Source of the DNA: a virus
Virus record (IMG/VR): IMGVR_UViG_3300025087_000044
Span: 35,114 to 99,113 of that record
DNA length: 64,000 nucleotides
Strand: one strand, 5' to 3'
In this document: positions 1 to 22,183 of the stretch, one piece after another
Numbering within the stretch: position 1 is the stretch's first letter
Layout: each line of letters begins with the position of its first letter
The notes under the pieces: model-generated
Told to the model about the DNA's origin: nothing
Database searches by the model: none
What the model saw: the letters and a program-made list of their open reading frames with translations, nothing else
Program-made: the position numbers and the translations under genes

Positions 1-75
1 GAAACAAAAACGCCCGAACGCCTGAACTTTTTGAAAGCGTTGAAAGCTAAGTGCGAGGAACTATTAAACTTGTAA
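1..75 (+). CDS. 3' end of an unidentified gene
   Basis: The window opens inside a reading frame whose last 24 residues end in KAKCEELLNL before TAA at 73-75. The start lies outside the window and too little remains to name it. A DnaA-box-like 9-mer and a promoter follow at once, so this is probably the last gene of an upstream transcription unit. Confidence 0.45.
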   Translation, partial: ETKTPERLNFLKALKAKCEELLNL

Positions 76-94
76 CTTTAGTCTTAAAACAGAC

Positions 95-103
95 TTATCC
101 ACA
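95..103 (+). promoter_or_regulatory. DnaA-box-type 9-mer TTATCCACA
   Basis: Perfect match to the bacterial DnaA box consensus TTATNCACA, 8 bp upstream of the -35 element at 112. The same 9-mer sits upstream of promoters at 6848, 12578, 16164 and 23369, and in reverse orientation before 47335. Confidence 0.5.
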
Positions 104-111
104 AAAACCTC

Positions 112-139
112 TTGCAATATCCGTTGAACGTGCTATACT
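112..139 (+). promoter_or_regulatory. sigma70-type promoter (TTGCAA-16-TATACT)
   Basis: TTGCAA at 112-117 and TATACT at 134-139 are 16 bp apart, with TGC before the -10. It stands in the gap between a gene end and the small gene at 164, so it probably drives the 164-1852 cluster and the structured RNA at 333-483. Confidence 0.55.
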
Positions 140-163
140 GGTTGTAGGAGATAACCAATTTAT

Positions 164-325
164 ATGATGACGCAAAAAGACATGATACGGCTTGCCCAGA
201 AGTCAGTAACGGCAAGACGGCGCAAGAACCGAATATACGCAATCAGCTTGAAGACCGGGCGGAGCGTACAGGAGCTGGTGAAGCTGGAGAATAAGGACGT
301 GGACATGATGTGGTGCAACCTTTAA
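164..325 (+). CDS. small basic protein, unknown
   Basis: 53 residues starting MMTQKDMIRLAQ, with a basic stretch TARRRKNR near residue 15 and no recognised domain. It is the first gene after the promoter at 112-139, with a GGAG-containing leader. The second ATG at 167 is an alternative start. A structured segment with no ORF follows its stop. Confidence 0.5.
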   Translation: MMTQKDMIRLAQKSVTARRRKNRIYAISLKTGRSVQELVKLENKDVDMMWCNL

Positions 326-332
326 AAAAATC

Positions 333-483
333 ACTGCTCTACTCCTATCGCAACCGCCACACCGCAATGATAGCAGGCGGAAGACAGGAAAGAGCGGTAA
401 GCTTAATCTCTGAATGAGCCAGATATGTGGAATAACTCCTAGCAGGGTGCGCTCCACATGTCTGGCGGATTAAGAGATTAAGC
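333..483 (+). ncRNA. structured RNA or leader of unknown class
   Basis: Stems visible by eye are GCTCT 336-340 with AGAGC 391-395, CCGCC 354-358 with GGCGG 376-380, an 11-bp stem GCTTAATCTCT 401-411 with 473-483, and inside it a 13-bp stem 419-431 with 453-465 containing one G-U pair. No ORF fits here. It lies between the small gene at 164 and the gene at 572, so it may be a stand-alone RNA or a cis-acting leader. No known family is recognised. Confidence 0.55.
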
Positions 484-571
484 AATATCAATAATCAATC
501 CTTTGGGTGGCAGGGGAGTCGGCGGTTAGTTGATTAGCCTCCTCTCCCGTTGCCCTAAGGACAGTAACAAT

Positions 572-823
572 ATGACAAAGAAAGAGTACATCGCCTTAGT
601 TGGCGACAGTCCAAGCTCGTTGTTTGGCGGCGATTGGAAGAACGAGCTGGCGGAGCTTGAAGACCTGGCAATACGAGATGGCGTAGCGAGACGGTGCGGA
701 TTAGTTCCTTGCGGGAAGAATTCCGAGGGTGAGCAGGAGTACATCGGCACGAAGCAAGAGTGGGACAGGTACGATGACGATAACGCTTCCGATGTGCTTT
801 ACGAGGAAGGAGCGGATAAATAA
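572..823 (+). CDS. hypothetical acidic protein
   Basis: 83 residues, start MTKKEYIALV at an ATG preceded by CTAAGGA, a fair Shine-Dalgarno sequence. The C-terminal third is acidic (DRYDDDNASD). No domain is recognised. It is followed two bases after the stop by the zinc-ribbon gene at 825, suggesting translation from one message. Confidence 0.6.
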   Translation: MTKKEYIALVGDSPSSLFGGDWKNELAELEDLAIRDGVARRCGLVPCGKNSEGEQEYIGTKQEWDRYDDDNASDVLYEEGADK

Positions 824-824
824 T

Positions 825-977
825 ATGTCCACCCATAGCGATTGGCAACGGTCGCAGTCCAATAGCAATTACGCCGAGTGCGAGGTGTGCGGCCGCCACC
901 TGCCAGCAGGAACTGTCTGTTACGGGAACGACGAAGGAGAATTTGTTTGTGAGAATTGCATGCCTGATAACGAATAA
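825..977 (+). CDS. small zinc-ribbon protein
   Basis: 50 residues with two CxxC knuckles (CEVCG and CENC) about 25 residues apart, typical of a single treble-clef or ribbon zinc fold. The start ATG follows the previous stop in a TAATATG context. It is one of two adjacent zinc-ribbon genes. Function unknown; nucleic acid or protein binding is possible. Confidence 0.55.
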   Translation: MSTHSDWQRSQSNSNYAECEVCGRHLPAGTVCYGNDEGEFVCENCMPDNE

Positions 978-981
978 CCAT

Positions 982-1221
982 ATGGATGACCAAAAAATAC
1001 TATGCCAACATTGCGGAACGGAAAAGGTATTCCACAACGGAGGAGTGCTTAACGGCAAAGGCTATCGGGCGTTCTTCTACTGCCCTGCATGCGAGATAGT
1101 TCAAAAGTACATGCCGATAGCACTAGGTGACAAGTGTCCTGTGTGTGGCGAGCCTGCTATATTGGGCAAGTATGGAGCGTACTGCAAGAATTGTTACATC
1201 AAGAATAAAACCAATAATTAA
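982..1221 (+). CDS. double zinc-ribbon protein
   Basis: 79 residues with four CxxC pairs (CQHC, CPAC, CPVC, CKNC), enough for two zinc ions. The first pair follows MDDQKIL. Such tandem ribbons in phages often resemble transcription-factor or topoisomerase zinc domains, but no specific family can be assigned. It lies 4 bp after the preceding zinc-ribbon gene. Confidence 0.6.
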   Translation: MDDQKILCQHCGTEKVFHNGGVLNGKGYRAFFYCPACEIVQKYMPIALGDKCPVCGEPAILGKYGAYCKNCYIKNKTNN

Positions 1222-1261
1222 GCCAATAGTCGCCAATTAGGCGCACGGCACAAAAAATAAT

Positions 1262-1852
1262 ATGGAAAACACATTCCTCCCAAGTACTTATGAGCCACCC
1301 GCGACCGAGAGCAAGTATTTGAAGATTGAGCAGGGCAAGACTAAGTTCCGAATCCTGTCGAACTCTATTCAAGGCTGGGTGGACTGGCAGGAAAAAGACG
1401 GCAAGCGAAAGCCTATCCGTACTCGAGAATGGCAACCTGCAATTGACCCCGAGCGTCCGTCAAAACATTTCTGGGCGTTCGCAGTGTGGGATTATGCCGC
1501 GCAATCCGTCAAAGTCATGGAGATAACGCAGAAGACCATTCAGCAGGCCATTCTAGAACTCTACAAGAGCGAGGATTGGGGCGACCCGAAAGGTTATGAC
1601 ATCGAGATAACACGTGAGGGCGAGAAAATGGAAACAAAGTACCACGTCATTCCGAAACCCCCGAAACCGCTTGACACTGTAGTGGCGGAAGCGAGAGACA
1701 GCATGAACGTTGACTTGGAACAGCTGTTTGTGGGAGGCGACCCGTTTGGTGAAGCCAGCCACAATGCCCCTGTGAGCCCCTACAATGCCCCAGGACGAAC
1801 GGAAGAGCCGTTACCTGAGGAATCGGTCACGGTGGCAGGAATTCCCTTCTAA
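1262..1852 (+). CDS. putative single-stranded DNA-binding protein
   Basis: 196 residues. The first 130 contain FRILSNSIQGW, a WxFxVWDY-like strand and VKVMEITQKTIQQAI followed by DWGDPKGYDIEI, an arrangement seen in phage OB-fold ssDNA-binding proteins. The C-terminal 40 residues are Pro/Glu-rich and disordered-looking and end in GIPF, resembling the IPF tip by which SSB recruits partners. It starts in an AATAATATG context. Assignment rests on overall pattern, not on a search; another OB-fold protein is possible. Confidence 0.6.
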   Translation: MENTFLPSTYEPPATESKYLKIEQGKTKFRILSNSIQGWVDWQEKDGKRKPIRTREWQPAIDPERPSKHFWAFAVWDYAAQSVKVMEITQKTIQQAILELYKSEDWGDPKGYDIEITREGEKMETKYHVIPKPPKPLDTVVAEARDSMNVDLEQLFVGGDPFGEASHNAPVSPYNAPGRTEEPLPEESVTVAGIPF

Positions 1853-1948
1853 ACGAAGTTTTAACTGCCCCTTTCCCGTTTTCGCAACTTTTATGCGACT
1901 GCACAATCAGTCCACCGGTGCGGAGACGGGGTGGGGCGGTATAATAAT

Positions 1949-2140
1949 ATGACCAACGATTTAATTTCAGAAACAATCAAAATAACAAAAGAAGAAACCG
2001 CGCTTAGTCCGCAAGAAGAATACGTTCTGGAACACGCTTTAAGATTTTTCGCCCAGAGAATAAGATACGACTTACTGGTCATTGCAGGCAAGGGCGAATA
2101 CGAAGACATGAGGCGTGAGGTGGAGAATTATTTTCAATAA
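1949..2140 (+). CDS. hypothetical helical protein
   Basis: 63 residues (MTNDLISETIKIT...), predicted mostly alpha-helical with LSPQEEYVLEHALRFFAQRI in the middle. The ATG lies in TAATAATATG, the start context common in this window. The next gene begins one base after its stop. No family recognised. Confidence 0.55.
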   Translation: MTNDLISETIKITKEETALSPQEEYVLEHALRFFAQRIRYDLLVIAGKGEYEDMRREVENYFQ

Positions 2141-2141
2141 T

Positions 2142-2603
2142 ATGCCAAAACTAAATGAATTTAAAGTAGGCGACAAAGTGAGACTTAATATTCCCGGAGA
2201 TAGTGATAATGGCAAAGAGGGTGTGGCTGGGTGCATTCATGATGATTGTTTGTACCTTGAATCAAATGAGTGGAATTTCAATGGCCTTCAATGCAAAGAA
2301 CACGGGTCTAAAAAATGTTGGATATGTGAAATTAATTCTAGTGGTGAAGTTAGTGCAAGTAGCAAGAATGGTGTTTTAGAACTAATTAACTCTAATATCA
2401 ACTTTATGAATCTCAAAGAAAAGTTCGTGCAAGTGTTTTTAAAAGAGCCTGAAAAATCTTTCCGCAAAGCGGAGATAACCAATGGAGATGGGATACTAAC
2501 AACTGACGGTCAAAGCGTCTTTCTTGGCTGGTTACTGAAAAAGCACGGTGATGAGTTTAAGACGGAAGTGGTTGATGAACTCTTGAAAGAAAAGGAGGCG
2601 TAA
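2142..2603 (+). CDS. hypothetical protein with SH3-like N-terminus
   Basis: 153 residues. The N-terminal part (FKVGDKVRLNIPGDS) looks like a KOW/SH3-type beta barrel opening, followed by a Cys-containing loop (CKEHGSKKCWIC) that could bind zinc. The C-terminal 60 residues (EPEKSFRKAEITNGDG) are helical. It may be two fused modules. Function unknown. Confidence 0.55.
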   Translation: MPKLNEFKVGDKVRLNIPGDSDNGKEGVAGCIHDDCLYLESNEWNFNGLQCKEHGSKKCWICEINSSGEVSASSKNGVLELINSNINFMNLKEKFVQVFLKEPEKSFRKAEITNGDGILTTDGQSVFLGWLLKKHGDEFKTEVVDELLKEKEA

Positions 2604-2604
2604 C

Positions 2605-2712
2605 ATGGCTATCAAGTTATCGTGGCAGGCGTGGCTGTTGCTCACAATGCAAGCCCGACTGGACTTGCTCTATGGCGAGTGCGCCGGGTACTGGACGCTT
2701 GACGTTATTTAA
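2605..2712 (+). CDS. small protein with strong ribosome binding site
   Basis: 35 residues (MAIKLSWQAWLLLTMQ...), with a hydrophobic first half that could be a short membrane segment. The start is supported by AAAGGAGGCG immediately upstream, one of the few strong Shine-Dalgarno sequences here. It begins 1 bp after the previous stop. Confidence 0.5.
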   Translation: MAIKLSWQAWLLLTMQARLDLLYGECAGYWTLDVI

Positions 2713-2721
2713 TCCTCACAC

Positions 2722-2741
2722 GCCCCTGTCATATCAGGGGC
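2722..2741. other. 7-bp inverted repeat
   Basis: GCCCCTG and CAGGGGC are separated by 6 bp just after the gene ending at 2712. An A-run, not a T-run, follows on the plus strand, so it lacks the usual layout of an intrinsic terminator. Confidence 0.4.
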
Positions 2742-2768
2742 TAAAAAAACTTTAACTGTACTAAACAT

Positions 2769-2858
2769 ATGAAAATCACAATCAAAGCGGAGCCAACCTG
2801 TGCAGAGCCGACCTGTGCAGAGCCAAAATTAAAATTGCGCAAAAAGCGGAGTTGTTAA
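2769..2858 (+). CDS. possible short peptide with internal repeat
   Basis: 29 residues beginning MKITIKAEPTCAEP and ending in basic KLRKKRSC. The CAEPT unit is encoded by a 15-bp direct repeat. No Shine-Dalgarno sequence and no known family. It may be spurious. Confidence 0.25.
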   Translation: MKITIKAEPTCAEPTCAEPKLKLRKKRSC

Positions 2859-2914
2859 AAACCTTAGGTATTATTATTGAGGAGTAAGAACTTAACTAAC
2901 TAACATAAAACAGT

Positions 2915-3373
2915 ATGCAAACAAAACAAGCAATTCAAGCAAGTGCGAATGTAGTGCGAATAACATCTATCTCTGCTGGCGATCTGTATAAAAGATTTGA
3001 CGAATCTTATGATGATAGGGTTTATTACGGAATTGTCAAAAAAGTCCATAATGACGGAGAAAAAACGGTAATTGAGGCAGTAGAATACAGATATTCATGG
3101 AACTCCTTGGAAGTGGATTATAAAATTATTAGAGGAGAAAAAGACTTTACTATTTTCCCCGCCACACAAGAAGAATTTAATCTTGAATTGGGTAAGGCAA
3201 AAAAGAAAAAAATTCAAGAAATAAAAGAATCAGAAGAAAAGATAGAAGAAAACAAAAAAGTCTTAGAAGAAATCAGCAAAATGGAATCGGGAGAACTAAT
3301 GGCAGGCCTAAAAAGCGTTAGCTATGCAGAATTAACGCAAGAACAATATAACGAAAGAATGCTTTTGAAATAA
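2915..3373 (+). CDS. hypothetical protein with C-terminal coiled coil
   Basis: 152 residues. Residues 15-90 look like a mixed alpha/beta domain (VVRITSISAGDLYKRF...). Residues 95-130 are a Lys/Glu-rich heptad-like stretch (KKKKIQEIKESEEKIEENKK) expected to form a coiled coil. The leader carries repeats of CTAA. Function unknown. Confidence 0.6.
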   Translation: MQTKQAIQASANVVRITSISAGDLYKRFDESYDDRVYYGIVKKVHNDGEKTVIEAVEYRYSWNSLEVDYKIIRGEKDFTIFPATQEEFNLELGKAKKKKIQEIKESEEKIEENKKVLEEISKMESGELMAGLKSVSYAELTQEQYNERMLLK

Positions 3374-3392
3374 CTAAATAATATAAAAAAGT

Positions 3393-3746
3393 ATGAATGA
3401 AGAACTAACAGTCAATGGAATTGAGTATGTTCCCAAGAGTTCAGTTGCGGAGAAGTTTGAAGGTTTGAAATATGTAATAGCAAGAACTTATTCGGCAGGC
3501 GTTTTTGCTGGATATTTAAAGAGTAGGAACGGCCTAGAAGGAGTTTTACTGAAGGCTCGCAGATTGTGGTATTGGGCTGGAGCGGCCAGTCTGTCTCAAT
3601 TGGCAATGGAAGGAACTTCGAAACCGACAGAATGTAAATTTCCGTGCGAAGTGGACGCAATCGAATTGACGCAGATTATTGAAATTTTGGATGTAACAAA
3701 AAAAGCTCAAGACTCAATTAACGCCGTAAAAATATGGAAAGAATAA
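3393..3746 (+). CDS. DUF6948-like protein
   Basis: 117 residues. The stretch YVIARTYSAGVFAGYL, the RRLWYWAGAASLSQLA core and the CKFP motif match what I recall of the phage DUF6948 family, whose function is unknown. In phage genomes this family is often followed by a Gly/Tyr/Ser-rich repeat gene, as here. The next gene overlaps its 3' end by 13 bp. The name rests on recall of the motif. Confidence 0.7.
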   Translation: MNEELTVNGIEYVPKSSVAEKFEGLKYVIARTYSAGVFAGYLKSRNGLEGVLLKARRLWYWAGAASLSQLAMEGTSKPTECKFPCEVDAIELTQIIEILDVTKKAQDSINAVKIWKE

Positions 3747-4021
3747 ATGACGGTTCCGGTTCCGGTTCCGGTGACGGTTACGGTTACGGTGACGGTGACG
3801 GTGACGGTTCCGGTTACGGTTACGGTGCCGGAACCGGTTCCGGTTCCGGTTACGGTGACGGTTACGGTGACGGTTCCGGTGACGGTTACGGTTACGGGGA
3901 CGATGACGGTTACGGTGACGGTTACGGTGACGGTTCCGGTTACGGTTACGGTGACGGTGACGGTGACGGTTCCGGTGACGGTGACGGTTCCGGTGACGGT
4001 TACGATTCCGGTAACGGTTAA
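3734..4021 (+). CDS. Gly/Tyr/Asp/Ser repeat protein
   Basis: 95 residues. After MERIND nearly every second residue is Gly, alternating with Ser, Asp or Tyr (GSGDGYGYGDG pattern), so it is low complexity with no folded domain expected. It overlaps the DUF6948-like gene by 13 bp. Because the DNA is a hexamer-like repeat, all six frames are poor in stops, so only the frame and the gene pairing support it as coding. Confidence 0.55.
   Translation: MERINDGSGSGSGDGYGYGDGDGDGSGYGYGAGTGSGSGYGDGYGDGSGDGYGYGDDDGYGDGYGDGSGYGYGDGDGDGSGDGDGSGDGYDSGNG
3752..4018. repeat. tandem GGTNNC hexamer-type repeat
   Basis: About 265 bp built almost entirely from GGTTCC, GGTTAC and GGTGAC half-units, giving an internal array that could expand or contract by slippage. 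It encodes the Gly-rich protein at 3734. Confidence 0.85.
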
Positions 4022-4068
4022 AATCCAGACCTGTTGGCGGAGCAGGCCAAAACCGCCTGATTAAATTT

Positions 4069-4230
4069 ATGAAACTTAAAACACATATCCCCTCACTGGT
4101 TTGTGCCGCGTTCTCGGCAGTAACCACTGGCAGCATGCTTGCGTATAACGTACCGCTTTGGTTAATAATCCCGATCGCTCTAGTGGGTTCTTTGTCTGTT
4201 GGTGTCGTAATGCTCATTATACTTGACTAG
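4069..4230 (+). CDS. small membrane protein
   Basis: 53 residues with two hydrophobic stretches: about 10-25 (VCAAFSAVTTGSML) and 30-50 (PLWLIIPIALVGSLSVGVVMLIIL). Probably a two-segment inner-membrane protein. It ends in TAG, showing that amber is a normal stop in this genome. Function unknown. About 155 bp after it hold no convincing gene. Confidence 0.55.
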   Translation: MKLKTHIPSLVCAAFSAVTTGSMLAYNVPLWLIIPIALVGSLSVGVVMLIILD

Positions 4231-4385
4231 CCCACCTTCATGCCGCAAACTTGGAGGCCGGGGGAGAGGAAATTAACTCGATTCCTCAACAGCCTGCAAA
4301 ATAACTTTACTCTACAGAACTGGCTCCTACCAACAAACAACAATGTCCAAACAATTCCTTGCACCACCACATTGAATAAAAAAAT

Positions 4386-4667
4386 ATGATTAAATTGAAA
4401 ATTGAATTTTTTGATAGAGTTTCACAAAGTGGAGAAACTGGATTTAGAAGCGCGGAAATTCAAATTCCAGATGAGGCAATGTTACTTTCTAACAAGCCAA
4501 CCTTTAATGGAGAAATTTCAAACGAACGCCATCAATTTGTTATGGATGAACTCGAAAGAATAGTTAATGAAACAGAGGGTGTCAATTATGGAGAAATTAG
4601 TGAGATTGAAAGCGATATCCCAATTAGACAAAGATTTGTAATTATAACATGTCGAAAAATTCAATAA
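4386..4667 (+). CDS. hypothetical protein
   Basis: 93 residues (MIKLKIEFFDRVS...), alternating beta-type stretches and an acidic helix (VMDELERIVNE). No family recognised. The following gene begins inside its last codons. Confidence 0.5.
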   Translation: MIKLKIEFFDRVSQSGETGFRSAEIQIPDEAMLLSNKPTFNGEISNERHQFVMDELERIVNETEGVNYGEISEIESDIPIRQRFVIITCRKIQ

Positions 4668-4840
4668 TAAAAAATCCTATGACACTTTCAGAATTAAAAA
4701 AACACTTGGAGGTGATACGTCTAAGAAATGGCGTTGATTCAGACAGAGACCATCAGGAAGTTGATGATATGCTTATCGGTTATATAAACGATGGCGAGGT
4801 AACTGAGTTGTTTGATTCAATTGAAAAGTGGTATTCCTGA
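4649..4840 (+). CDS. hypothetical small protein
   Basis: 63 residues from the ATG at 4649, or 53 from the ATG at 4679 (MTLSELKKHLEVIR), which avoids the overlap and is equally likely. The protein is acidic and helical, with no recognised domain. Confidence 0.45.
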   Translation: MSKNSIIKNPMTLSELKKHLEVIRLRNGVDSDRDHQEVDDMLIGYINDGEVTELFDSIEKWYS

Positions 4841-4878
4841 CCTAATAATAATTGGAAAATAAATTAAAATAAAATCTT

Positions 4879-4953
4879 ATGAGTAAATTCAAAGCGGGAA
4901 TGATTATCGAGAACGCTGACGAGGGTTCGACTCCCTCAGTTGACTTGCACTAA
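4879..4953 (+). pseudogene. truncated duplicate of the gene at 5132
   Basis: The first 13 codons (MSKFKAGMIIENA) nearly repeat the start of the 5132 gene (MSKFKAGMIIKNA) at DNA level, then the reading frame runs into a tRNA T-arm sequence and stops at TAA 4951. It looks like a recombination scar rather than a working gene. Confidence 0.6.
4919..4945 (+). pseudogene. tRNA 3'-end remnant
   Basis: GAGGGTTCGACTCCCTC at 4921-4937 is a perfect T-arm (5-bp stem, TTCGA loop), and AGTTGAC follows as an acceptor 3' strand would. No matching GTCAACT or anticodon arm lies upstream, so only the 3' part of a tRNA is present. Confidence 0.55.
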
Positions 4954-4971
4954 ATTTAATAGGAGAATAGT

Positions 4972-5130
4972 ATGACCGAAGAGCAAGAGTTTTTAGACAA
5001 AGAAATCCAAGTCTGCAATGACGAGATGGATAAGGCCATCAAGACCAGTTCCGCGGCGCAAGACGTATTGAAGTTCTACGCCCGGCGCAAAGAGTTTTTA
5101 ACTAAGATACTAAATTTAATAGGAGAATAA
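4972..5130 (+). CDS. hypothetical small helical protein
   Basis: 52 residues (MTEEQEFLDKEIQVCN...), helical and charged. The leader CTAAATTTAATAGGAGAATA before its ATG is repeated almost exactly at its own 3' end, where it encodes KILNLIGE and serves as the ribosome binding region of the next gene. This supports a tandem duplication of the leader. Confidence 0.5.
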   Translation: MTEEQEFLDKEIQVCNDEMDKAIKTSSAAQDVLKFYARRKEFLTKILNLIGE

Positions 5131-5131
5131 T

Positions 5132-5506
5132 ATGTCAAAATTCAAAGCGGGAATGATAATCAAGAACGCTGCAGGTAAGCGCAAGATACTCGGCCAGTGC
5201 GGTGAAGTGTTCTTTATTAGCGAGGAAGATGATTTTGAAACAGCAGTATCCGAGATATACACAGAAGAAGAATTGCTGAAAGTTAATTTTAAACCCGTCG
5301 AAGAGCCGTGGAAACCTGAGAAGAACAGAGAATATATTTTTCTTGACCTCGCTGGAGAACACGCTTCTACGATTTGGATAAATGGCAAAAGCGACAATTA
5401 TCTCCTCTCCATCGGCAACGTCTTTCCACCCGAGAACAACGAAGAACTCATTGCCGAGTACAAGCGCAAGTTGCAGGAGATGTTTAAGCCAGAGTCTTAC
5501 AAGTAA
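5132..5506 (+). CDS. hypothetical protein (parent of the 4879 fragment)
   Basis: 124 residues, opening MSKFKAGMIIKNAAGKRKIL, a short KOW-like beta start, then an acidic region and a C-terminal helix (EELIAEYKRKLQEMF). AGGAG lies 8 bp before the ATG. Its 5' end is duplicated 250 bp upstream. Function unknown. Confidence 0.6.
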   Translation: MSKFKAGMIIKNAAGKRKILGQCGEVFFISEEDDFETAVSEIYTEEELLKVNFKPVEEPWKPEKNREYIFLDLAGEHASTIWINGKSDNYLLSIGNVFPPENNEELIAEYKRKLQEMFKPESYK

Positions 5507-5514
5507 AAAATAAT

Positions 5515-5703
5515 ATGGAAAAAACATTTTGCGATATTTGCGGGGTGGAGATGAAGAAGCTAAACTATTACATTTACCGGCTAATGCACGAAAAACCGGG
5601 ACTTGATATGTGCGATTTTGCCGTGTCAAGCCATCTGGATGTCTGCCAAGATTGCTGTGAAAAATTCATTACAAAAGAAAACCGCGTTAATCAAGGGAAA
5701 TAA
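5515..5703 (+). CDS. small zinc-binding protein
   Basis: 62 residues with CDICG at the N-terminus and CQDCC near the C-terminus, a likely single zinc site. The last ten residues TKENRVNQGK recur at the end of the next, otherwise different protein. The start lies in AAATAATATG. Confidence 0.55.
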   Translation: MEKTFCDICGVEMKKLNYYIYRLMHEKPGLDMCDFAVSSHLDVCQDCCEKFITKENRVNQGK

Positions 5704-5708
5704 AAAAT

Positions 5709-5891
5709 ATGAAAAAAGGCCAACAATTGGCGTGTATATTGCGAGAACTTGCAGAAAACATTGCCATAATCAGAGACAAGGGGACTGATTGGAGCGAATG
5801 TATGTTTGATGATATCGAAGAAGTTTGTCGTGAGTTTGACAAAAGCGATAAATTCACAACCAAAGAGAATCGAGTTAATCAAGGGAAATGA
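5709..5891 (+). CDS. hypothetical small helical protein
   Basis: 60 residues, helical (QQLACILRELAENIAIIRD). It ends in the same TKENRVNQGK tail as the preceding gene, encoded by near-identical DNA. Its stop overlaps the ATGA start of the next gene, implying translational coupling. Confidence 0.5.
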   Translation: MKKGQQLACILRELAENIAIIRDKGTDWSECMFDDIEEVCREFDKSDKFTTKENRVNQGK

Positions 5892-6118
5892 TTATGACAA
5901 TATCAGATAAAGAATTGGGGGAAAAGCTTCTCAAGTGGATTAGGCGGTATCATCAATATTGCCATAAAGTTATGGTTGAGTTGCCCGATGGAAACATTAC
6001 AACGCAATACAAAGAAGGCGACCTTATGATATGCAAAGCTTGTAAAGATGAGATAGCTTTACTAGAAGAAGAAATAAACAAAAGAAATAAAAAGATAATT
6101 AAAAATAGACTTGTATGA
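5888..6118 (+). CDS. hypothetical protein with CxxC
   Basis: 76 residues from 5888, or 74 from the ATG at 5894. The middle contains MICKACKDE, a CxxC knuckle, followed by a charged helix (EEEINKRNKK). No family recognised. It is coupled to the previous gene through an ATGA overlap. Confidence 0.5.
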   Translation: MIMTISDKELGEKLLKWIRRYHQYCHKVMVELPDGNITTQYKEGDLMICKACKDEIALLEEEINKRNKKIIKNRLV

Positions 6119-6309
6119 AAACTGTCAAGTGTAAAAACTGTTATGATAAAAGTTTCGCCAGCGTTTATTAAGCTGACAGTTATGCCATGCCTGATTTTTA
6201 CGGCGATAAAAAATACCGAGTCCAAAAAGTGGGAATAAGAATTAAATACTGCACTTGCCTAAAAGGCAAACGCATGAAAGCTTATGACAAACAAATTAAA
6301 AAAAGATAA
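6115..6309 (+). pseudogene. possible frameshifted zinc-ribbon gene
   Basis: An 18-residue frame at 6115-6171 (MKTVKCKNCYDKSF) and a 40-residue frame at 6187-6309 (MPDFYGDKKYRV...YCTC) each carry half of a CxxC...CxC zinc site. Together they look like one small zinc-ribbon protein broken by a frame change. They could instead be two independent short peptides. Confidence 0.3.
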
Positions 6310-6637
6310 ATTCCTAAAAGCATGGCGATATCTTGAAAGTCTTAAATACTTTAATCCGCCCGAGATAGCTGGACTTTTCGGATTCGGCAATTTCGATATA
6401 ATGGTCAGCAGTGAGACGACCCCAAAAGGAACCAATGTTTACGTTGAATTGAACACGGGCAGTTGGAACGAGAAGTATAGTTGCTTTTCTCACGATTACA
6501 GACTAGACGTTTCATGTCCTACATTCGAGGATGCCATAATCGAGCTTGCCAAGAAATGCAAAAAGTTAGGCCGCAAGCTTAATCATTCAGTAAGCGAGAC
6601 GATAAAGTTCAAGAAAATAAAACATCTCCTAAAATGA
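6284..6637 (+). CDS. hypothetical protein
   Basis: 117 residues (MTNKLKKDKFLKAWRYLESL...), with a beta-rich middle (VYVELNTGSW) and a basic C-terminal helix. No domain recognised. It overlaps the next start as ATGA. Confidence 0.55.
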   Translation: MTNKLKKDKFLKAWRYLESLKYFNPPEIAGLFGFGNFDIMVSSETTPKGTNVYVELNTGSWNEKYSCFSHDYRLDVSCPTFEDAIIELAKKCKKLGRKLNHSVSETIKFKKIKHLLK

Positions 6638-6834
6638 GTTACGAATATCAAATGGTTCTCCTCGACGTTAAAGTTGAGGCGATAAACCAGAGGCGCGATA
6701 AGTTACTGAGAGGTGGAATCAGTTACGATAAATTGTGGTTGGATTTTAATCTTGAAAAGCTATATATCGAGGCAGAGCAAATCATACTAAAATTAAAGCA
6801 AATTACCACTTATCCACACAATTTCCAAAAATGA
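6634..6834 (+). CDS. hypothetical helical protein
   Basis: 66 residues, helical and charged, coupled to the gene before it by a 4-bp overlap. Its last codons contain a perfect TTATCCACA box (6810-6818) just before the promoter at 6848. It is the last gene before a 600-bp segment with no long ORF. Confidence 0.5.
   Translation: MSYEYQMVLLDVKVEAINQRRDKLLRGGISYDKLWLDFNLEKLYIEAEQIILKLKQITTYPHNFQK
6810..6818 (+). promoter_or_regulatory. DnaA-box-type 9-mer TTATCCACA
   Basis: Perfect TTATNCACA match inside the end of the 6634 gene, 29 bp before the -35 element at 6848. Confidence 0.4.
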
Positions 6835-6847
6835 CTTAAACAACCCC

Positions 6848-6875
6848 TTTACAAATCTATTCAATCTGCTACAAT
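6848..6875 (+). promoter_or_regulatory. sigma70-type promoter of the 6880-7280 RNA
   Basis: TTTACA 6848-6853, 16-bp spacer, TACAAT 6870-6875, with TGC before the -10 as in the other promoters here. It has the CCCC flank shared with promoters at 12578 and 16164. Transcription would begin near 6880, exactly where the first stem of the structured RNA begins. Confidence 0.6.
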
Positions 6876-6879
6876 TTAA

Positions 6880-7280
6880 TTAGGCAAAAAATAAGCTAAC
6901 CTTACAGAAAATAACTTTCTAGTGCCTAAACAATATAAGCGATGTCAAATCGTTTCGTGTGTTAATCTCATTTAAGATGTGTCTTGCCTTTAAAACGGCA
7001 GTACCAACACGGGTACATTTGACACACATCTTAGCTGAGATTTTTTGTTATTTATATCCTGTTCGGAATAAAAGAGATATAACGGTCACACGCTAACGCT
7101 ACGACCCAAACTGTCCCTCCCGATTCCGAGCAGGATATAGGTAACTATAGTCTTCCCCCAGAGTTGCTAGCTACTCTATAAGCGGACTTAAAAAGGCTTA
7201 TGTCAAGCTAATCCTTGGGCGTGCAGGAACCGCTCTAAATAGCCTGCCTTTATACGAGTTTCACCACAAAAGTCCTTTTA
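6880..7280 (+). ncRNA. large structured non-coding RNA, unknown class
   Basis: About 400 nt with no ORF behind its own promoter. Stems: TTAGGCA 6880-6886 with 6923-6929; a 17-bp helix with one internal loop, 6964-6982 with 7024-7042, holding two apical hairpins (TGCC/GGCA and GTACC/GGTAC); a 17-bp helix 7053-7069 with 7123-7139 (one G-U) closing a branched 53-nt loop; AGAGT/ACTCT near 7160-7177; and GGACTT 7184-7189 with 7270-7275, enclosing AGGCT/AGCCT. A T-run follows the second helix at 7041-7046, so a shorter transcript is possible. It is not tmRNA, RNase P RNA or 6S RNA by eye. Confidence 0.65.
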
Positions 7281-7389
7281 AATCAAATCGCTAATTTCTC
7301 TTATATAAATTGATATAAATATCTATTTAAAAAGAGTAATTATAAATAAAATTTTAACTCGGTAATGGTTGTATGGGGAGTGGGGGTAA

Positions 7390-7430
7390 TATAGCTATAT
7401 ATAGCCATTCCATAAACAAACAATATATTG
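7390..7430. promoter_or_regulatory. palindromes, possible operator of the ribbon-helix-helix genes
   Basis: TATAGCTATA at 7390-7399 and CAATATATTG at 7421-7430 are perfect 10-bp palindromes directly before the two ribbon-helix-helix-like genes. Proteins of that fold often bind such sites in their own promoters. Confidence 0.35.
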
Positions 7431-7440
7431 TCTAATATGT

Positions 7441-7611
7441 ATGCAGTTACATTCCAAAGAAGAACGATTGATTTTAAAGAAAAAGGTGTATGTAACTGAT
7501 GAGGTTTTTGAAACATTGTTAGTCGAAAAGAAAAGGCAAAAAATATCAATGGCAAAAATAGTTTGTAATTTGATAATAGAAAAATATGTTAATAGAGAAA
7601 ACAAAACTTGA
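7441..7611 (+). CDS. ribbon-helix-helix-like regulator
   Basis: 56 residues. KKKVYVTDEVFETLLVEKKRQKISMAKIVCNLIIEKYV fits, in pieces, the beta strand, helix A, turn and helix B pattern of CopG/Arc-type DNA-binding proteins. It overlaps the next, similarly built gene by 26 bp. The pair may be paralogues acting as heterodimers. The assignment is by pattern only. Confidence 0.45.
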   Translation: MQLHSKEERLILKKKVYVTDEVFETLLVEKKRQKISMAKIVCNLIIEKYVNRENKT

Positions 7612-7765
7612 AAGTAATGCAACAAGTATATTTAAAAAAAGAGTAAGAGTTAGTTTGAAAGATTATGCTTTTCTAGTAAAGACCAAAGGAAAGAAAAGTA
7701 TAGCAGGGCGATTGGAAGAGATAGTTAAATTCCATATTGAGAAAATATATAAAGAAAAAAAATAA
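7586..7765 (+). CDS. second ribbon-helix-helix-like regulator
   Basis: 59 residues with RVRVSLKDYAFLVKTKGKK then SIAGRLEEIVKFHIEKIY, again a short strand followed by two helices. It has the same layout as the 7441 gene but little identity. The RNase H gene begins 3 bp after its stop. Confidence 0.45.
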   Translation: MLIEKTKLESNATSIFKKRVRVSLKDYAFLVKTKGKKSIAGRLEEIVKFHIEKIYKEKK

Positions 7766-7768
7766 ATT

Positions 7769-8158
7769 ATGCACTTATATGTTGACGGATATACTATAGG
7801 AGCTAATCCTAGCAAAGTAGGCGGAGGATATGTCGTAATGGACGAAAGAAAGAACGTCTTATGGGAAGGAAAGTGCTTAAAGCCTAATTTTACGAACAAT
7901 GAAGCAGAGTTGATAGCCATTATGAGAGCCACCGAGCTTGCTCATCAAAACGATACCATTTTTACGGACAGCCATTGCGCTTGGTGCTGGGTAATCGGAG
8001 GCCATTGCAAGGCCAGGAGAGATTTAAATAAATACGCAGCCCAGTCCCAATGCAATATGTATGACAAGAACCTTACAATAAAGCAGATACCCAGAGAGAT
8101 AAATTTAGCGGGTATTTACTTGGAAGATAAAAAATATGGAACGATTATTCCAAGATGA
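7769..8158 (+). CDS. ribonuclease HI-like protein
   Basis: 129 residues with the RNase H fold signature: YVDGYTIGANPSKVGGG (first catalytic Asp at about residue 6), NNEAELIAI (catalytic Glu) and FTDSHCAW (second Asp). The fourth acidic residue, normally in an N..AD pattern near the end, is Gly here (EINLAGIYLE), so activity may be reduced or use another residue. Expected to cleave RNA in RNA-DNA hybrids, for example at replication primers. The next gene overlaps its end. Confidence 0.8.
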   Translation: MHLYVDGYTIGANPSKVGGGYVVMDERKNVLWEGKCLKPNFTNNEAELIAIMRATELAHQNDTIFTDSHCAWCWVIGGHCKARRDLNKYAAQSQCNMYDKNLTIKQIPREINLAGIYLEDKKYGTIIPR

Positions 8159-8378
8159 CAAATTCAAAACCGCGGATATTGCAAAAATGAACTTGAAGAC
8201 ATTGCAAATGTTCGAAGGATTCTGGACTGCCGTTTACGAGAGTGCAGGCAGGAACAATAATGAGAAAAAGTTTATTGAGGCTGAGTCTAATCTTATAAAA
8301 ATAAGAGAAGCGATGATGGCTCTAAAATTAAAAGAAACAAAACCCTATGGACAGAGAGAAGTACATAACTCGATTTGA
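8136..8378 (+). CDS. hypothetical helical protein
   Basis: 80 residues, helical and charged (KMNLKTLQMFEGFWTAVYES). It overlaps both the RNase H gene and the following gene, consistent with a tightly coupled operon. No family recognised. Confidence 0.5.
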   Translation: MERLFQDDKFKTADIAKMNLKTLQMFEGFWTAVYESAGRNNNEKKFIEAESNLIKIREAMMALKLKETKPYGQREVHNSI

Positions 8379-8673
8379 TATCGTAACCAAGCCTATGATG
8401 CTGGAGTTCATGTTCAAGCATAAGATATTCAATGCTCAGGACGTGATAGCTCTAGGCGTTGAGAATAGAACCGATAAGCGTAAGACCCCCGAAGGTCGAG
8501 CGAGAAAGATTGTTAAGTTCTTGGCCTATCTAATCGGGATGGGCTTTTTGAGAGCCAAGCCAGACAGCAATGTTTTAGAAGTTGATGAGTCATTCATTCC
8601 CAGAGACCAGCGAGAACCTGTTAAGATTGTAGAGCCTAAAAAGACAAAAAAAGTTAAAAAAAGACGAACGTAA
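8347..8673 (+). CDS. putative winged-helix protein
   Basis: 108 residues. Residues 10-80 (MLEFMFKHKIFNAQDVIALGV...KIVKFLAYLIGMGFLRA) resemble a helix-turn-helix plus wing arrangement. The C-terminal tail is strongly basic (KKTKKVKKRRT), consistent with nucleic-acid binding. Identity not established. Confidence 0.45.
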   Translation: MDREKYITRFDIVTKPMMLEFMFKHKIFNAQDVIALGVENRTDKRKTPEGRARKIVKFLAYLIGMGFLRAKPDSNVLEVDESFIPRDQREPVKIVEPKKTKKVKKRRT

Positions 8674-9730: not shown

Positions 9731-11860
9731 ATGTTTACCTATAAAAAAGATGGATTCAATGTTCCAGTCAAAAGTTGGATACCAGAAAAAGATTATTATT
9801 CTGACGTTGCTATGGTTGAACAGTGCGAGAATTTGGCAAGGTTGCCTTTTTCTTTCGGACACGTTGTCTTGTGTCCTGACGGACATGTTGGTTTCGGTTG
9901 CCCAATCGGTTCAGTCGTTGCAACTAAAGCTGTAATAATTCCCAATGTTTGTGGGGTAGATATTGGAGCTGTAGATAGGGATACTGAGATTTTAACTAAA
10001 AGTGGATGGATTACTATAGATAAATATAACAACATTGATGATGTCTTAATTTATGATAATTACAAGCAAACTTCCTTTTTTAGCAAGCCATTGTTGTATA
10101 TTGTAAAACCTTGTGAAGATTTTACGGAATACAAAAGCAAATATGGATTAGACCAGGTTTTGAGTGACGAGCATAGAATGTTGGTTTATGAAGGGTATGG
10201 AAAAGATAGAACAAACAATACTTATTTTTGTAAGGACTTTAGGGAAAAATTATCAAAATTAAAAAAACAAGATTATTATTCAGTAAGAACGACGTTCGCA
10301 ACAAATGAAAAGGGAATAAAATTAACAGATGAGCAGATAGCTATTATGGTAATGGTTTCTGCTGATGGTCATATTAGAAAACAGTCTAGTGTATATACAA
10401 ATGTAGAGATGCATTTTAAAAAGAGTAGAAAAATAAATCGTTGTAAGGTTTTGTTGAATAAAGCAAAAGTTAGTTTTAAAGAATATGACCACAGTGATAA
10501 GACAAAGTCAATAATCTTTAAGTTAGATTGGGAGTGTAAGAAAGAATTAACTGCTTTATATCTATGTAATCAGCATCAGGCAAAAGTTGTTTTTGACGAG
10601 TATTTGTATTGGGATGGAACCATTGATAAAAAAAGAAATCATAAAATGTATTCCACAACAAAGAAAGTAAACGCCGATGTTGTTCAGTATATATGTGCCG
10701 TGAATGGAGTTAGGGCTGGCATACATCTTCAAAGTTATAAAAATGAAAATTGGAATGATTCATATAGCGTGTATCAAACGAGAAACGAATATGTTGGATT
10801 CAGTCGTCCCCAAAAAATAAAGATACCAAACGGTAACAAGTATTGTTTTGTTGTTGAAACTGGATATTTTGTTGCTAGAAGGAATAACAAGATATTTGTT
10901 ACTGGAAACTGTGGAATGATTGCGGTTAAAACATCTCTTACTGAATTGGACAGAGAAACATTAAAAAAGATTCTTGGTAATATAAGACAAACGATTCCTG
11001 TAGGATTCGAACACCACAAAACAGACCAAGACATTACCCTCATGCCGAATTATGGGTTAGGAGCAGGTGGCGAAATAACAGGAAGAGAGTACATGTCAGC
11101 CCTAAGGCAGATTGGAACACTTGGTGGAGGTAATCATTTTATCGAAATCCAAAAAGGAGATGATGGGCATATCTGGATAATGATTCATTCGGGTTCGAGA
11201 AACTTAGGAAAGCAAGTTGCTGATTATTATAACAAAGTCGCTATTGAGTTAAACGAAAAATATCACTCCTCAGTACCTAATGAATGGCAGTTAGCGTTTT
11301 TGCCTGTTGACAGTCAAGAAGGACAGAATTATATTTCCGAGATGAATTATTGCGTTGAGTTTGCGTTGGCTAATAGACAGTTAATGATGAGCAGGATAAT
11401 TGATATTTTCTGCAAGCATACAGAATTGGCTGCTAAGGGTTGGGAACCGCCAATCAATATAGCTCACAATTATGCCAAGCAAGAAAATCATTACGGACAA
11501 AATTTATGGGTTCACAGAAAAGGAGCAACGTTAGCGCAAGACGGAACAATAGGAATAATCCCTGGCTCACAAGGTTCAAGTTCGTTCATCGTTAAGGGCA
11601 AGGGAAGTAAAGAATCATTTAATTCATGTTCACATGGTGCAGGAAGGCTTATGAGCAGAACCAAAGCCATGGCCACTCTTAACCTTGAAGATGAGATAAA
11701 GAAACTTGACGACCAAGGTATTTTGCATGCAATCAGAGGCAAGAAAGACCTTGATGAGGCAAGCGGTTCTTATAAGAACGTAGAAGAAGTAATGAACAAT
11801 CAATCTGATTTAGTGGATATTTTAGTAAAATTAAGCCCAATGGGTGTCGTGAAAGGATAG
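9731..11860 (+). CDS. rtcB: RNA-splicing ligase RtcB with intein
   Basis: 709 residues as translated; about 395 after removal of a 314-residue intein (residues 80-393). The extein ligates RNA 2',3'-cyclic phosphate to 5'-OH ends using GTP and Mn2+. Visible motifs are GVDIG-CGMIAV (rejoined metal-binding Cys), GGGNHFIEI, HSGSRNLG, NIAHNYA and SCSHGAGRLMSR with the guanylated His. All catalytic motifs are present, so the spliced enzyme should be active. With the RNA ligase at 13812 and phage tRNAs, a role in repairing cleaved tRNAs is likely. Confidence 0.93.
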   Translation: MFTYKKDGFNVPVKSWIPEKDYYSDVAMVEQCENLARLPFSFGHVVLCPDGHVGFGCPIGSVVATKAVIIPNVCGVDIGAVDRDTEILTKSGWITIDKYNNIDDVLIYDNYKQTSFFSKPLLYIVKPCEDFTEYKSKYGLDQVLSDEHRMLVYEGYGKDRTNNTYFCKDFREKLSKLKKQDYYSVRTTFATNEKGIKLTDEQIAIMVMVSADGHIRKQSSVYTNVEMHFKKSRKINRCKVLLNKAKVSFKEYDHSDKTKSIIFKLDWECKKELTALYLCNQHQAKVVFDEYLYWDGTIDKKRNHKMYSTTKKVNADVVQYICAVNGVRAGIHLQSYKNENWNDSYSVYQTRNEYVGFSRPQKIKIPNGNKYCFVVETGYFVARRNNKIFVTGNCGMIAVKTSLTELDRETLKKILGNIRQTIPVGFEHHKTDQDITLMPNYGLGAGGEITGREYMSALRQIGTLGGGNHFIEIQKGDDGHIWIMIHSGSRNLGKQVADYYNKVAIELNEKYHSSVPNEWQLAFLPVDSQEGQNYISEMNYCVEFALANRQLMMSRIIDIFCKHTELAAKGWEPPINIAHNYAKQENHYGQNLWVHRKGATLAQDGTIGIIPGSQGSSSFIVKGKGSKESFNSCSHGAGRLMSRTKAMATLNLEDEIKKLDDQGILHAIRGKKDLDEASGSYKNVEEVMNNQSDLVDILVKLSPMGVVKG
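9968..10909 (+). mobile_element. intein with LAGLIDADG endonuclease in RtcB
   Basis: 314 residues inserted exactly between Gly79 and the metal-binding Cys of GVDIGCGM. It begins AVDRDTEILTKSGW (block A, with Ala instead of Cys or Ser as residue 1) and ends NKIFVTGN before +1 Cys, with Gly instead of the usual penultimate His. LAGLIDADG-like motifs are IMVMVSADGHI and FDEYLYWDGTI. The Ala1 start suggests an alternative splicing mechanism in which the +1 Cys attacks directly. Confidence 0.88.
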
Positions 11861-13811: not shown

Positions 13812-14459
13812 ATGCACTATTACCATAAAATAAATTCAATGTTCAAAAGAGAGTCTGTTAATGGCGGAAAGATATTGATTGGAGAATGGGCTACTCCAGA
13901 GTTCGGATGGTTACAGGATAATAAATGGGTATGGACAGAAAAAATTGACGGCACTAGCATTTTAATCCATTTTGACGGAGAAAAGATTACGTTTGGCGGA
14001 CACACCGTAAACTCTCAAATTCCATTTGCTTTAGTTGAGAAGTTGCATGAATTGTTTGATTCAAAACTGCAATTATTCAAGGATACATTTTTGCCCAATG
14101 AAGAAGGGCTTACCGATGTTACTTTTTACGGCGAGGGATACGGCGCGGGGATTCAAGGTGGAGGTGGAAAGTACCGTAAAGATAAAAGTTTTATAGGTTT
14201 CGATATTAGGATAGGTAATATATGGTTATTGAGAAAAGACGTTGAGGAGATATTCACTAAATTCCTAATTGATGTGGTTCCCATTGTGGGGTATGGAAAT
14301 TTAAATTCAGCCATTGAATTTGTTAGAAACGGATTCAAGTCCACGTTTGGAGATTTCATTGCCGAGGGGTTGGTGGTTAGGCCAGAAGTTGAGTTAAGGA
14401 CTAGGCGTGGAGACAGAATAATCACTAAGATAAAATACAAAGATTTTAAAGACCTTTAA
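13812..14459 (+). CDS. RNA ligase, Rnl2-like
   Basis: 215 residues with the ordered nucleotidyltransferase motifs of ATP-dependent RNA ligases: motif I WTEKIDGTSI (Lys adenylated, about residue 43), motif III-like FIGFDIRIG, motif IV AEGLVVRP and motif V IITKIKYKDF. The length is short, close to the adenylyltransferase core of the Rnl2 group without a long C-terminal domain. It seals 3'-OH to 5'-phosphate RNA ends. With RtcB it gives the phage two chemically different RNA-joining activities. Confidence 0.82.
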   Translation: MHYYHKINSMFKRESVNGGKILIGEWATPEFGWLQDNKWVWTEKIDGTSILIHFDGEKITFGGHTVNSQIPFALVEKLHELFDSKLQLFKDTFLPNEEGLTDVTFYGEGYGAGIQGGGGKYRKDKSFIGFDIRIGNIWLLRKDVEEIFTKFLIDVVPIVGYGNLNSAIEFVRNGFKSTFGDFIAEGLVVRPEVELRTRRGDRIITKIKYKDFKDL

Positions 14460-14472
14460 AAGAACAAAATTT

Positions 14473-15348
14473 ATGTTCATGCTAATCGACAAGATTCAAG
14501 AGCATTTAAACCGTAAGGCGGAAGAAGAACGCAAGAGAGATGACGGAAGTGCCAGAGTAAAAGACAGTTTCTGGTGCAGCGAGTGTGAAGCACCATTATT
14601 TGACCTTTATCATAAATGGATTGGAACTCCGCCAACTAATCCTTCAAGTGCTGAAGGCATGATGATAATGTCAACTGGCAAGATGGTAGAGATGTCATTA
14701 GTTGATACGCTGAATGACTTGGACCTGATAGAATTCAATCCGAAAGAACCGCAGGTAAGGGTTGATATGAAACGATTAGGAGTAAAGATTACGGGATACA
14801 TGGATGCAGTATTAAAAGACGGAAGAACCCCAGTTGAGGTAAAAAGTTTTTATGGAGACTATCAGGCAAAAGAATTGAAAGAAGGAAAAGCCAGAACGTC
14901 ATATCTCAAACAGCTTGGTTGTTACATGGATTTTATAGGGTCGGATATTGGACGATTGGTTTATATCAATCGAGGTACTGGTGAGTTGCTAGAATTCATT
15001 CTTGAAAGAAACGGATTAAAATTCAAATGTTTGGACATAGAGTTTGATTTGGAAGATACTTATAAGAGATGGGCAGAGTTGTATTACAATAATATCTTGC
15101 CAAGGAAAGAGCCTATCAGCGAATTCCGCTATAAGATAAAAGTTGAAGATATTGACTGGAGTCTTATAAGTAATGCTGATATCTCAAAGGCTAGGACTAA
15201 TAAAAAAGTAATAGGAGATTCTTGGCAAGTTGCTTATTCTCCATATAAATCTCTTATCATTGAGCGAGAGGGAAGTACTTTGGGCTATACAGAGGAAGAG
15301 TTAGAATTCATTTTAAACGCCACGAAAGGCTATAGTAAAAGAAAATAA
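14473..15348 (+). CDS. PD-(D/E)XK nuclease, Cas4/RecB-like
   Basis: 291 residues. The nuclease core is visible as GYMDAVLKDGRTPVEVKSF (motif II Asp and EVK) followed by YLKQLGCYM (QxxxY motif). A CSEC pair near residue 35 could bind zinc or be part of a cluster. Proteins like this act as phage exonucleases in recombination or replication. The next gene starts 2 bp after the stop. Confidence 0.75.
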   Translation: MFMLIDKIQEHLNRKAEEERKRDDGSARVKDSFWCSECEAPLFDLYHKWIGTPPTNPSSAEGMMIMSTGKMVEMSLVDTLNDLDLIEFNPKEPQVRVDMKRLGVKITGYMDAVLKDGRTPVEVKSFYGDYQAKELKEGKARTSYLKQLGCYMDFIGSDIGRLVYINRGTGELLEFILERNGLKFKCLDIEFDLEDTYKRWAELYYNNILPRKEPISEFRYKIKVEDIDWSLISNADISKARTNKKVIGDSWQVAYSPYKSLIIEREGSTLGYTEEELEFILNATKGYSKRK

Positions 15349-20318: not shown

Positions 20319-20349
20319 GGTTCAGTTTGAATACAGACTAAGCAATTAC

Positions 20350-20826: not shown

Positions 20827-20867
20827 GTTTTTGTTATATAGCGTTGTGAGCGTTGACTTAAGAACGT

Positions 20868-21056: not shown

Positions 21057-21069
21057 TAAACAAAAAACT

Positions 21070-21868: not shown

Positions 21869-21869
21869 T

Positions 21870-22172: not shown

Positions 22173-22183
22173 AATCAAAAACT

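Follow-up and report, generated by a model that had tools for sequence, protein, structure and literature searches.

Introduction

A G-rich run lies near the RNA II hybrid site of ColE1. The RNA II promoter stands 550-555 bp from the ColE1 origin, and RNA II forms a persistent hybrid that is cleaved by RNase H, as stated in the excerpted text of two reports (PMC5043065, PMC11012335). In phage T4, oriF and oriG consist of a phage promoter and an A+T-rich unwinding element, and the viral RNase H very likely processes the oriF R-loops and makes the oriF primer; the minimal origins measure ~100 bp, and no hairpins like those reported below are described in the portion of the source cited here (PMC3016281). 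HK022 put RNAs, according to the relevant section of PMC9378689, are two-stem RNAs located just downstream of early promoters or, for putR, ~270 nt downstream. ROOL and GOLLD RNAs are often found near tRNA islands and form nanocages, according to the passages drawn from PMC12286853.

The window analysed here is a 64,000-nt stretch of DNA comprising bases 35114-99113 of a 99113-base virus record (G000). A first-pass annotation had read positions 6880-7280 of this window as a structured RNA of ~400 nt with its own promoter; our analysis partly supports that reading and partly confirms the observation behind it. The stretch is probably transcribed, non-coding and structured, with its own promoter. 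Its best explanation, which we hold tentatively as possible rather than probable, is, by analogy with ColE1 RNA II or T4 oriF, a pre-primer-like transcript that would enter an R-loop origin.

Features of the locus and comparison with described systems

The features considered are listed below in window coordinates.

6810-6818, + strand: TTATCCACA box, DnaA-box-like, 38 nt before the -35 element
6848-6875, + strand: promoter TTTACA-N16-TACAAT with TG before the -10 element (sigma70-type scan, family pattern)
6882-7440, + strand: stretch predicted to be transcribed and untranslated, 559 nt long, the next ATG ORF of at least 50 aa starting at 7441
6964-7042, + strand: hairpin 1, 19-nt arms, three-way top with apical hairpins 6985-7000 and 7001-7016, z -7.4
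7041-7046, + strand: T6 tract at the foot of hairpin 1, from its sequence a possible atypical terminator or pause
7047-7145, + strand: hairpin 2, 23-bp stem and 53-nt top, z -9.4
7147-7284, + strand: remainder of the reported element, structure at chance level (z +0.2 for 7147-7300)
7285-7360, no strand assigned: A+T-rich stretch, unwinding-element-like, 70-nt GC 12.9%
7360-7458, no strand assigned: lowest point of the detrended cumulative G-C skew around the inferred 81-kb circle
7375-7386, + strand: G-rich run on the transcript strand, GGGG at 7375-7378 and GGGGG at 7382-7386
7769-8158, + strand: RNase HI-like gene (PHROG, Pfam and PDB profile matches)

Like ColE1 RNA II, the locus has a promoter ~500 nt upstream of the proposed origin, a structured non-coding transcript predicted to enter it and a G-rich run near the proposed hybrid site, the run starting ~493 nt from the predicted transcript start. 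Unlike ColE1, the host replicon would be a phage of ~81 kb (inferred size) rather than a small plasmid, it carries its own RNase HI-like gene, and a consensus scan of the - strand inside 6880-7300 found no RNA I-like antisense promoter. Rfam and plasmid BLASTN, the sole sequence comparisons, gave no likeness to RNA II. As in T4 oriF and oriG, a phage promoter is followed by an A+T-rich unwinding stretch and a viral RNase H gene is present; unlike in T4, the proposed origin comes with large hairpins, and the promoter class differs, that of T4 being MotA. The element shares with ROOL and GOLLD that it is phage-encoded, non-coding and structured. It differs from them in that no model matched at E <= 10, only ~180 nt are significantly structured and no tRNA gene occurs within 5 kb (the nearest, at 12473, is 5.2 kb away). 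A compact, ornate RNA of 400 nt of the ROOL/GOLLD type is not supported.

The source record joins two phages

Judged from its alignments to two sister records, the 99-kb record is a mosaic in which a phage A is joined to a phage B near window 6110-6152; this is relevant to all users of the record, whether the element proves to be part of an origin or a leader. The sister record G002 (42171 bases, of which 40000 were compared) is, as far as compared, identical to record bases 1-32806 and 33665-35200 and to window 1-5745. Because it passes from window 5745 straight into record base 1, phage A may be regarded as a circle of ~40.9 kb. At 92% identity, window 5746-6109 represents a variant of record 1-358, and the record end (window 63457-64000) is again phage-A-like, at 96% and inverted. 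G001, the other sister record (23641 bases), differs from the window as far as ~6151; from there to window 6347, where G001 ends, the two are near-identical, with three mismatches in 196 nt as counted from the alignment. The start of G001 continues the phage-A-like record end after a 16-nt gap. Tail genes lie on G001 and the phage B terminase and portal on the window, and an apparent second terminase and portal, those of phage A, were read from the translations of record bases 20001-35200; a tblastn search of the phage collection with the phage A portal returned nothing. Phage B, to whose part of the record the element belongs and which is known only from metagenomes, would then measure ~81 kb (window 6.15-64 kb plus G001), an overlap-based reconstruction possibly across strains. 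The 81-kb circle requires another record, G001, joined by the 196-nt overlap with its three mismatches at one end and by abutting matches at the other, and this dependence counts against the origin reading given below.

An exceptionally long untranslated run behind a family promoter

The absence of an ORF noted in the first-pass annotation holds for + strand frames of at least 50 aa, none of which occurs between 6835 and 7440. A 66-aa ORF ends at 6834 and the next ATG ORF starts at 7441, leaving a gap of ~600 nt, and the sole + strand ORF of at least 20 aa inside 6880-7280 is a 45-aa GTG frame at 6959-7096. The sigma70-type promoter reported just upstream was likewise recovered, at 6848-6875. 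A generic sigma70 scan is uninformative alone (four sites against 5.3 expected). The strict pattern TT[TG]ACA-N16-18-TA[TC]AAT, composed after a looser scan had revealed sites, matches six positions on the + strand of the window (6848, 12578, 16164, 18782, 23369 and 55707) and none on its - strand; the looser scan also gave two - strand sites in the window, and the 6848 promoter was absent from its list. The 6848 copy strays further from the consensus than its siblings, having a weaker -10 element (TACAAT) and a 16-nt spacer, and the 41 nt around it are 85% identical to positions 14896-14936 of the sister contig L017.

The family layout consists of a TTATCCACA-like box, AAAACCCC-type repeats and TTTACA-N16/17-TGCTATAAT. 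The box, or a one-base variant of it, lies 28-93 nt upstream in five of the six strict window promoters, and several family promoters have the repeats directly 5' of the -35 element. Family boxes were located at window 6810, 12550, 16093, 18754 and 23276/23339 and at L017 14830 and 19718, and the layout recurs in this sister contig at 14902 and, in a looser form, at 19751. The TTATCCACA box is not origin-specific, because it is present at most family promoters. The distances from box to promoter (28, 28, 30, 38, 71, 72 and 93) look by eye like helical-turn spacing, and in phage A a promoter-like site after a box at window 95 resembles the phage-B family.

The distance from the predicted start to the next ATG ORF of at least 50 aa is 559 nt at the element, compared with 127, 43, 7, 31 and 25 nt at the five further strict matches in the window, of which the 127 nt is an overestimate since a 44-aa ORF starts at 12640, and with 62 nt at the L017 14902 promoter. 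The 559-nt untranslated run is therefore exceptional against the 7-127 nt at six other family promoters. The transcript start at 6882 is a predicted position, assumed to lie ~7 nt past the -10 element.

Two adjacent long hairpins exceed chance

The two long helices of the first-pass annotation, one of them with two apical hairpins, were confirmed. The arms of hairpin 1 (6964-6982/7024-7042) form 17 Watson-Crick pairs, one G-U pair and one mismatch over 19 positions and enclose the two apical hairpins (z -7.4), and those of hairpin 2 (7047-7069/7123-7145) form 20 Watson-Crick and three G-U pairs over 23 positions (z -9.4). Among 40 dinucleotide shuffles of the whole window, none had two centres of at least 15/17 within 100 nt, the mean being 0.6 centres per shuffle; among a further 40, none contained a 20/23 Watson-Crick arm and three contained a 17/19 arm. 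The 64 kb itself holds three centres with at least 15/17 Watson-Crick pairs (span 110, strand-neutral), two of which are these hairpins. The MFE z for 6880-7300 was -6.65, and a scan of 320 non-overlapping 200-nt windows, each compared with 30 shuffles, placed the window at 7001 4th, next after one at 56801 that belongs to a group I intron. Two adjacent long hairpins in 6964-7145 thus exceed chance.

The flanks gave z values of -1.8 for 6882-6963, +0.2 for 7147-7300 and -0.04 for 7147-7407. Because z is near 0 after 7147, the significant structure covers ~180 nt (6964-7145), and the extent of ~400 nt first given to the structured RNA was overstated; the several shorter helices reported with it are not supported by these flanking values. 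The proposal that transcription starts exactly at a first stem (~6881-6886/6923-6928) fared weakly: the centroid of 6880-7300 contains the stem, as does the MFE of 6882-7042, but it is missing from the MFE of 6880-7300 and from two other folds. A candidate loop-junction pseudoknot (GUCAA 6944-6948/UUGAC 7019-7023) was rejected, since such a match arose in 62 of 500 shuffles and is hence no evidence. The first apical hairpin (window 6987-6998) has the 12-mer CCTTTAAAACGG in common with L017 14620-14631, where it lies, by eye, inside a terminator-like hairpin of the sister contig.

The imperfect positions bear on the strand that the structure serves. Of the five non-Watson-Crick arm positions, four read as G-U on the + strand and the fifth is a U-C mismatch; there is no A-C, which would correspond to G-U on the - strand. 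By hand calculation, this bias has p ~0.003 under uniform mismatches and ~0.06 under transitions only, and it modestly favours a + strand RNA. It argues against a reading at the DNA level, in which the inverted repeats would be a cruciform, a binding site or the remnant of an inserted element with no RNA function. The same holds for the family promoter directed into the element and for the comparison of the element with the window and the compared loci, which found no related copy beyond the shared promoter and short pieces (the best other window piece being 31 nt, E 0.05). In favour of the DNA-level reading, both strands could form the stems (- strand z -3.8 for 6880-7300 and -4.85 for 6882-7407), and ~600 nt of non-coding DNA stand within a gene-dense phage. 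Two identical 12-nt copies of AGGCAAAAAATA in direct orientation (6882-6893 and 7534-7545) also bracket the region, although 6600-7700 contains ten two-copy families in all and short pairs of such kind are often due to chance. This repeat is unlikely to be a target-site duplication, because its second copy is inside the ORF 7441-7611. On balance, we consider an explanation by DNA repeats alone distinctly improbable.

The transcript may continue beyond the hairpins

A consensus terminator scan found no terminator-like site in 6500-7800, so the element may head a longer transcript. The main rival explanation takes the element as a cis-acting structured leader of the operon from 7441 on, which might work by antitermination on the passing RNA polymerase as HK022 put does, as an attenuator through the T6 tract, or through processing or stability elements such as RNase III-type substrates. 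The element does stand at the head of the operon, and no strict family promoter occurs between 6876 and 12578, so the downstream genes may depend on the 6848 promoter. Furthermore, the T6 tract follows hairpin 1, and two adjacent stem-loops in the nascent RNA past a phage promoter reproduce the put layout, as far as the cited section describes it (PMC9378689). That likeness is one of layout; the pair covers 182 nt here against ~70 nt for put, and each hairpin (79 and 99 nt, with stems of 19 and 23 nt) is larger than a whole put RNA. A leader would also leave the skew minimum unexplained. We regard this explanation as somewhat unlikely; if it were true, a group of phages not studied before would have a large leader element that belongs to no known family.

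Alternatively, the element could be a stand-alone, trans-acting non-coding RNA of the phage, ending near 7050, 7150 or 7400. Its own promoter, the lack of an ORF of at least 50 aa and the strong local structure would suit such an RNA, as would a longer fold that pairs the 5' and 3' ends (6883-6902 with 7384-7406). This end-closing fold had three sampled pairs at 0.87-0.99 when 6882-7407 was folded and helix means of 0.64-0.75 when 6882-7440 was folded. The missing terminator-like site, the chance-level structure past 7147 and the lack of a homologue in the searched data speak against a stand-alone RNA, which we judge unlikely.

Searches for homologues and RNA families

The Rfam search that the first-pass annotation had proposed gave no credible match to the element at the gathering score or at E <= 10, in agreement with its statement that no match is recognised, and by this comparison the two large hairpins would appear to be of no known family. 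Gathering-score matches to Rfam 15 in the window were tRNA genes at 12473, 20984 and 27885 and introns at 55497 and 56764, with none from the group I intron or other Rfam 15 families at the element; at E <= 10 there were four sub-threshold matches, all on the - strand. Neither the ROOL model (RF03087) nor the GOLLD model (RF02032) gave anything in the record at E <= 10. Of the 14 control genomes, the former gave a signal in 0 and the latter in 5, none above the cut-off, so neither result is proof of absence.

With the element as BLASTN query, 50,697 phage and 72,556 plasmid records returned just 25-41-nt pieces with E of at least 2. Searches through neighbouring genes also yielded no relatives: the RNase HI neighbour search of viral contigs gave six pattern matches and 0 relatives, the search with the 8347-8673 protein in genome contigs 499 matches and 0 relatives, and the search with the 6284-6637 protein 15 matches, one of which is the sister contig that ends at 6347, short of the element. 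The phage-B portal search collected 24 loci with a top identity of 44%, and when the element was compared with 27 records (those containing these 24 portal loci and three sister records), two matched: G001 through the shared promoter and G005 through a 20-nt piece (E 0.009). DNA patterns taken from the element occurred in 3, 44, 2 and 17 viral contigs and in one genome contig, and BLASTN of the element against the pattern loci gave only the pattern stretch or short pieces, the best being 30 nt of the AT-rich part (E 0.001). The covariance model R1 represents a single sequence (two identical rows) and carries no covariation information. Applied to 37 sources at E <= 10, it recovered only the element, the inverted reading of the element on the - strand and two pieces (E 1.8 and 4.2), and on 17 pattern loci one piece (E 0.57), the 44 loci of the 16-mer pattern and some overlapping sister loci being left out of these runs. 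No homologue of the element was therefore found across the phage, plasmid, viral-contig and genome-contig searches.

The 16-mer TTAAAACGGCAGTACC occurs in 44 viral contigs (L046-L089, e.g. L052, L061 and L088). Counted by eye, 27 of them have it in the context ..CCCAAATTTTT..TATAGGATATT, mostly just 5' of an ATG, and 10 in a second context; the former is possibly a conserved upstream element of those phages.

Base composition and GC skew near 7.4 kb

An A+T-rich stretch lies downstream of the promoter, as in T4-type origins. Its 70-mer of 12.9% GC ties for the lowest in phage B with those at 52847, 55199 and L017 6520, and these equally deep AT troughs count against the origin reading.

Computed from all bases, the detrended cumulative skew of the inferred phage-B circle is lowest at 7360 and highest at 51637, ~54% of the way round; of 1000 shuffles of 1-kb blocks, 1 reached this range. 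With coding bases only, the minimum was at 7458 and the maximum at 44819; with the third codon positions of 88 + strand ORFs of at least 90 aa, they were at 8080 and 52500, and the range was reached in 0 of 2000 gene-order shuffles. The three stretches used contain no - strand ATG ORF of at least 200 aa, so gene direction is not the cause of the skew. GC3 skew differs between the 10 genes upstream and the 10 downstream (Mann-Whitney p 0.012). The unmasked minimum is partly owed to the C-richness of the element itself: once the element and a C-rich gap of G001 were masked, the minimum lay at 7458 (-36.7), in a near tie with 17656 (-31.4), which counts against an origin here. In 2-kb block deletions, the minimum stayed at 7 kb in 32 of 41 cases and shifted to 17 kb in the other 9, and in the window alone, without G001, it lies at 17656. 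The best two-arm fit picks out an upstream patch of low skew, from L017 11.8 kb to L018 1.6 kb, and no clean two-arm genome; among the 383 two-arm fits at most 15% off the best, 111 place the low-to-high switch at window 6-8 kb, the commonest bin. Overall, the skew gives moderate support to an origin in or near 7.4 kb.

Downstream genes and phage-B protein content

The genes from 7441 on comprise two small ORFs (7441-7611 and 7586-7765), the RNase HI-like gene and others. The RNase HI-like protein matched profiles in PHROG (1.8e-8), Pfam (RNase_H, 2.9e-6, above the cut-off) and PDB (RNase H, 2e-4), its NCBIfam matches being far under the cut-offs, and it has 37% identity over the first 74 residues to proteins of five phage records. 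Inspected by eye, it presumably retains the first three acidic residues, and the last conserved Asp looks replaced. Family searches and single-sequence models, the latter of limited confidence, left a reading of the two small ORFs as ribbon-helix-helix regulators unsupported.

Of the phage-B proteins scanned (59 against PHROGs and 6 more against Pfam only), none received a name as helicase, primase, replicative polymerase or initiator, and the lack of a named initiator, helicase and replicative polymerase counts against the origin reading. 'Clamp loader' is among the matches of 49622-52327 and of L017 16604-17764, of which the latter has better AAA-ATPase matches, and PHROGs named a ParB-like protein (27027-27731) and a Holliday-junction-resolvase-like protein (22866-23264).

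A possible transcript-primed R-loop origin

The promoter, the structured non-coding transcript, the AT stretch, the G-run, the RNase H gene and the probable skew switch match the logic of a transcript-primed origin, and it is for this reason that an R-loop origin is our preferred reading. Direct computation shows the hairpins and the promoter family, as well as the composition features and where the skew minimum falls on the inferred circle; from them we infer transcription, R-loop formation, priming and any role of the RNase HI-like protein, in the following order. The TTATCCACA/TTTACA-family promoter would start a transcript at ~6882, the first part of which would fold into the two adjacent long hairpins. 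RNA polymerase would then cross the A+T-rich stretch and the G-rich run, ~7285-7390, where the RNA would most likely remain paired with the template as an R-loop. RNase H, possibly the phage's own RNase HI-like protein, encoded ~380 nt further on, would trim the hybrid RNA, and the trimmed RNA may prime or open a phage replication origin.

A narrower version, in which a phage R-loop origin is primed by its own structured pre-primer of ~500 nt, a counterpart of ColE1 RNA II with its own promoter and a phage RNase HI, appears doubtful. A limited search of the literature on phage origins, GC skew, structured RNA and R-loops found no phage origin of such kind among the titles listed. If the R-loop origin reading were true, a structured RNA with no known relatives would mark, and probably prime, a phage origin, providing a testable case of RNA-primed and possibly initiator-free replication outside T4 and ColE1-type plasmids. 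A family promoter, hairpins, an AT trough, RNase H and a skew minimum could then serve as marks for origins in metagenomic phages.

Other observations in the window

The RtcB RNA ligase gene at 9731-11860 encodes ~300 aa of other sequence after its N-terminal part, RtcB being matched in three stretches, and by reading only this interruption is intein-like. The same phage also carries an Rnl2-like RNA ligase (13812-14459) and three tRNA genes. The region 52699-57272 contains two group I introns (55497-55739 and 56764-57001), several HNH endonuclease genes and repeated segments of 77-121 nt. A non-coding, hairpin-rich gap lies at 32249-32383 (GACGAGGGGC...GCCCCTCGT); the 200-nt window at 32201 has z -5.9, and 32245-32390 folds modestly (z -2.5). 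In phage A, window 401-600 is the strongest fold of the 320 scanned (z -6.2), and its positions 401-483 match the opposite strand of the same place at 72%, that is, they form a hairpin.
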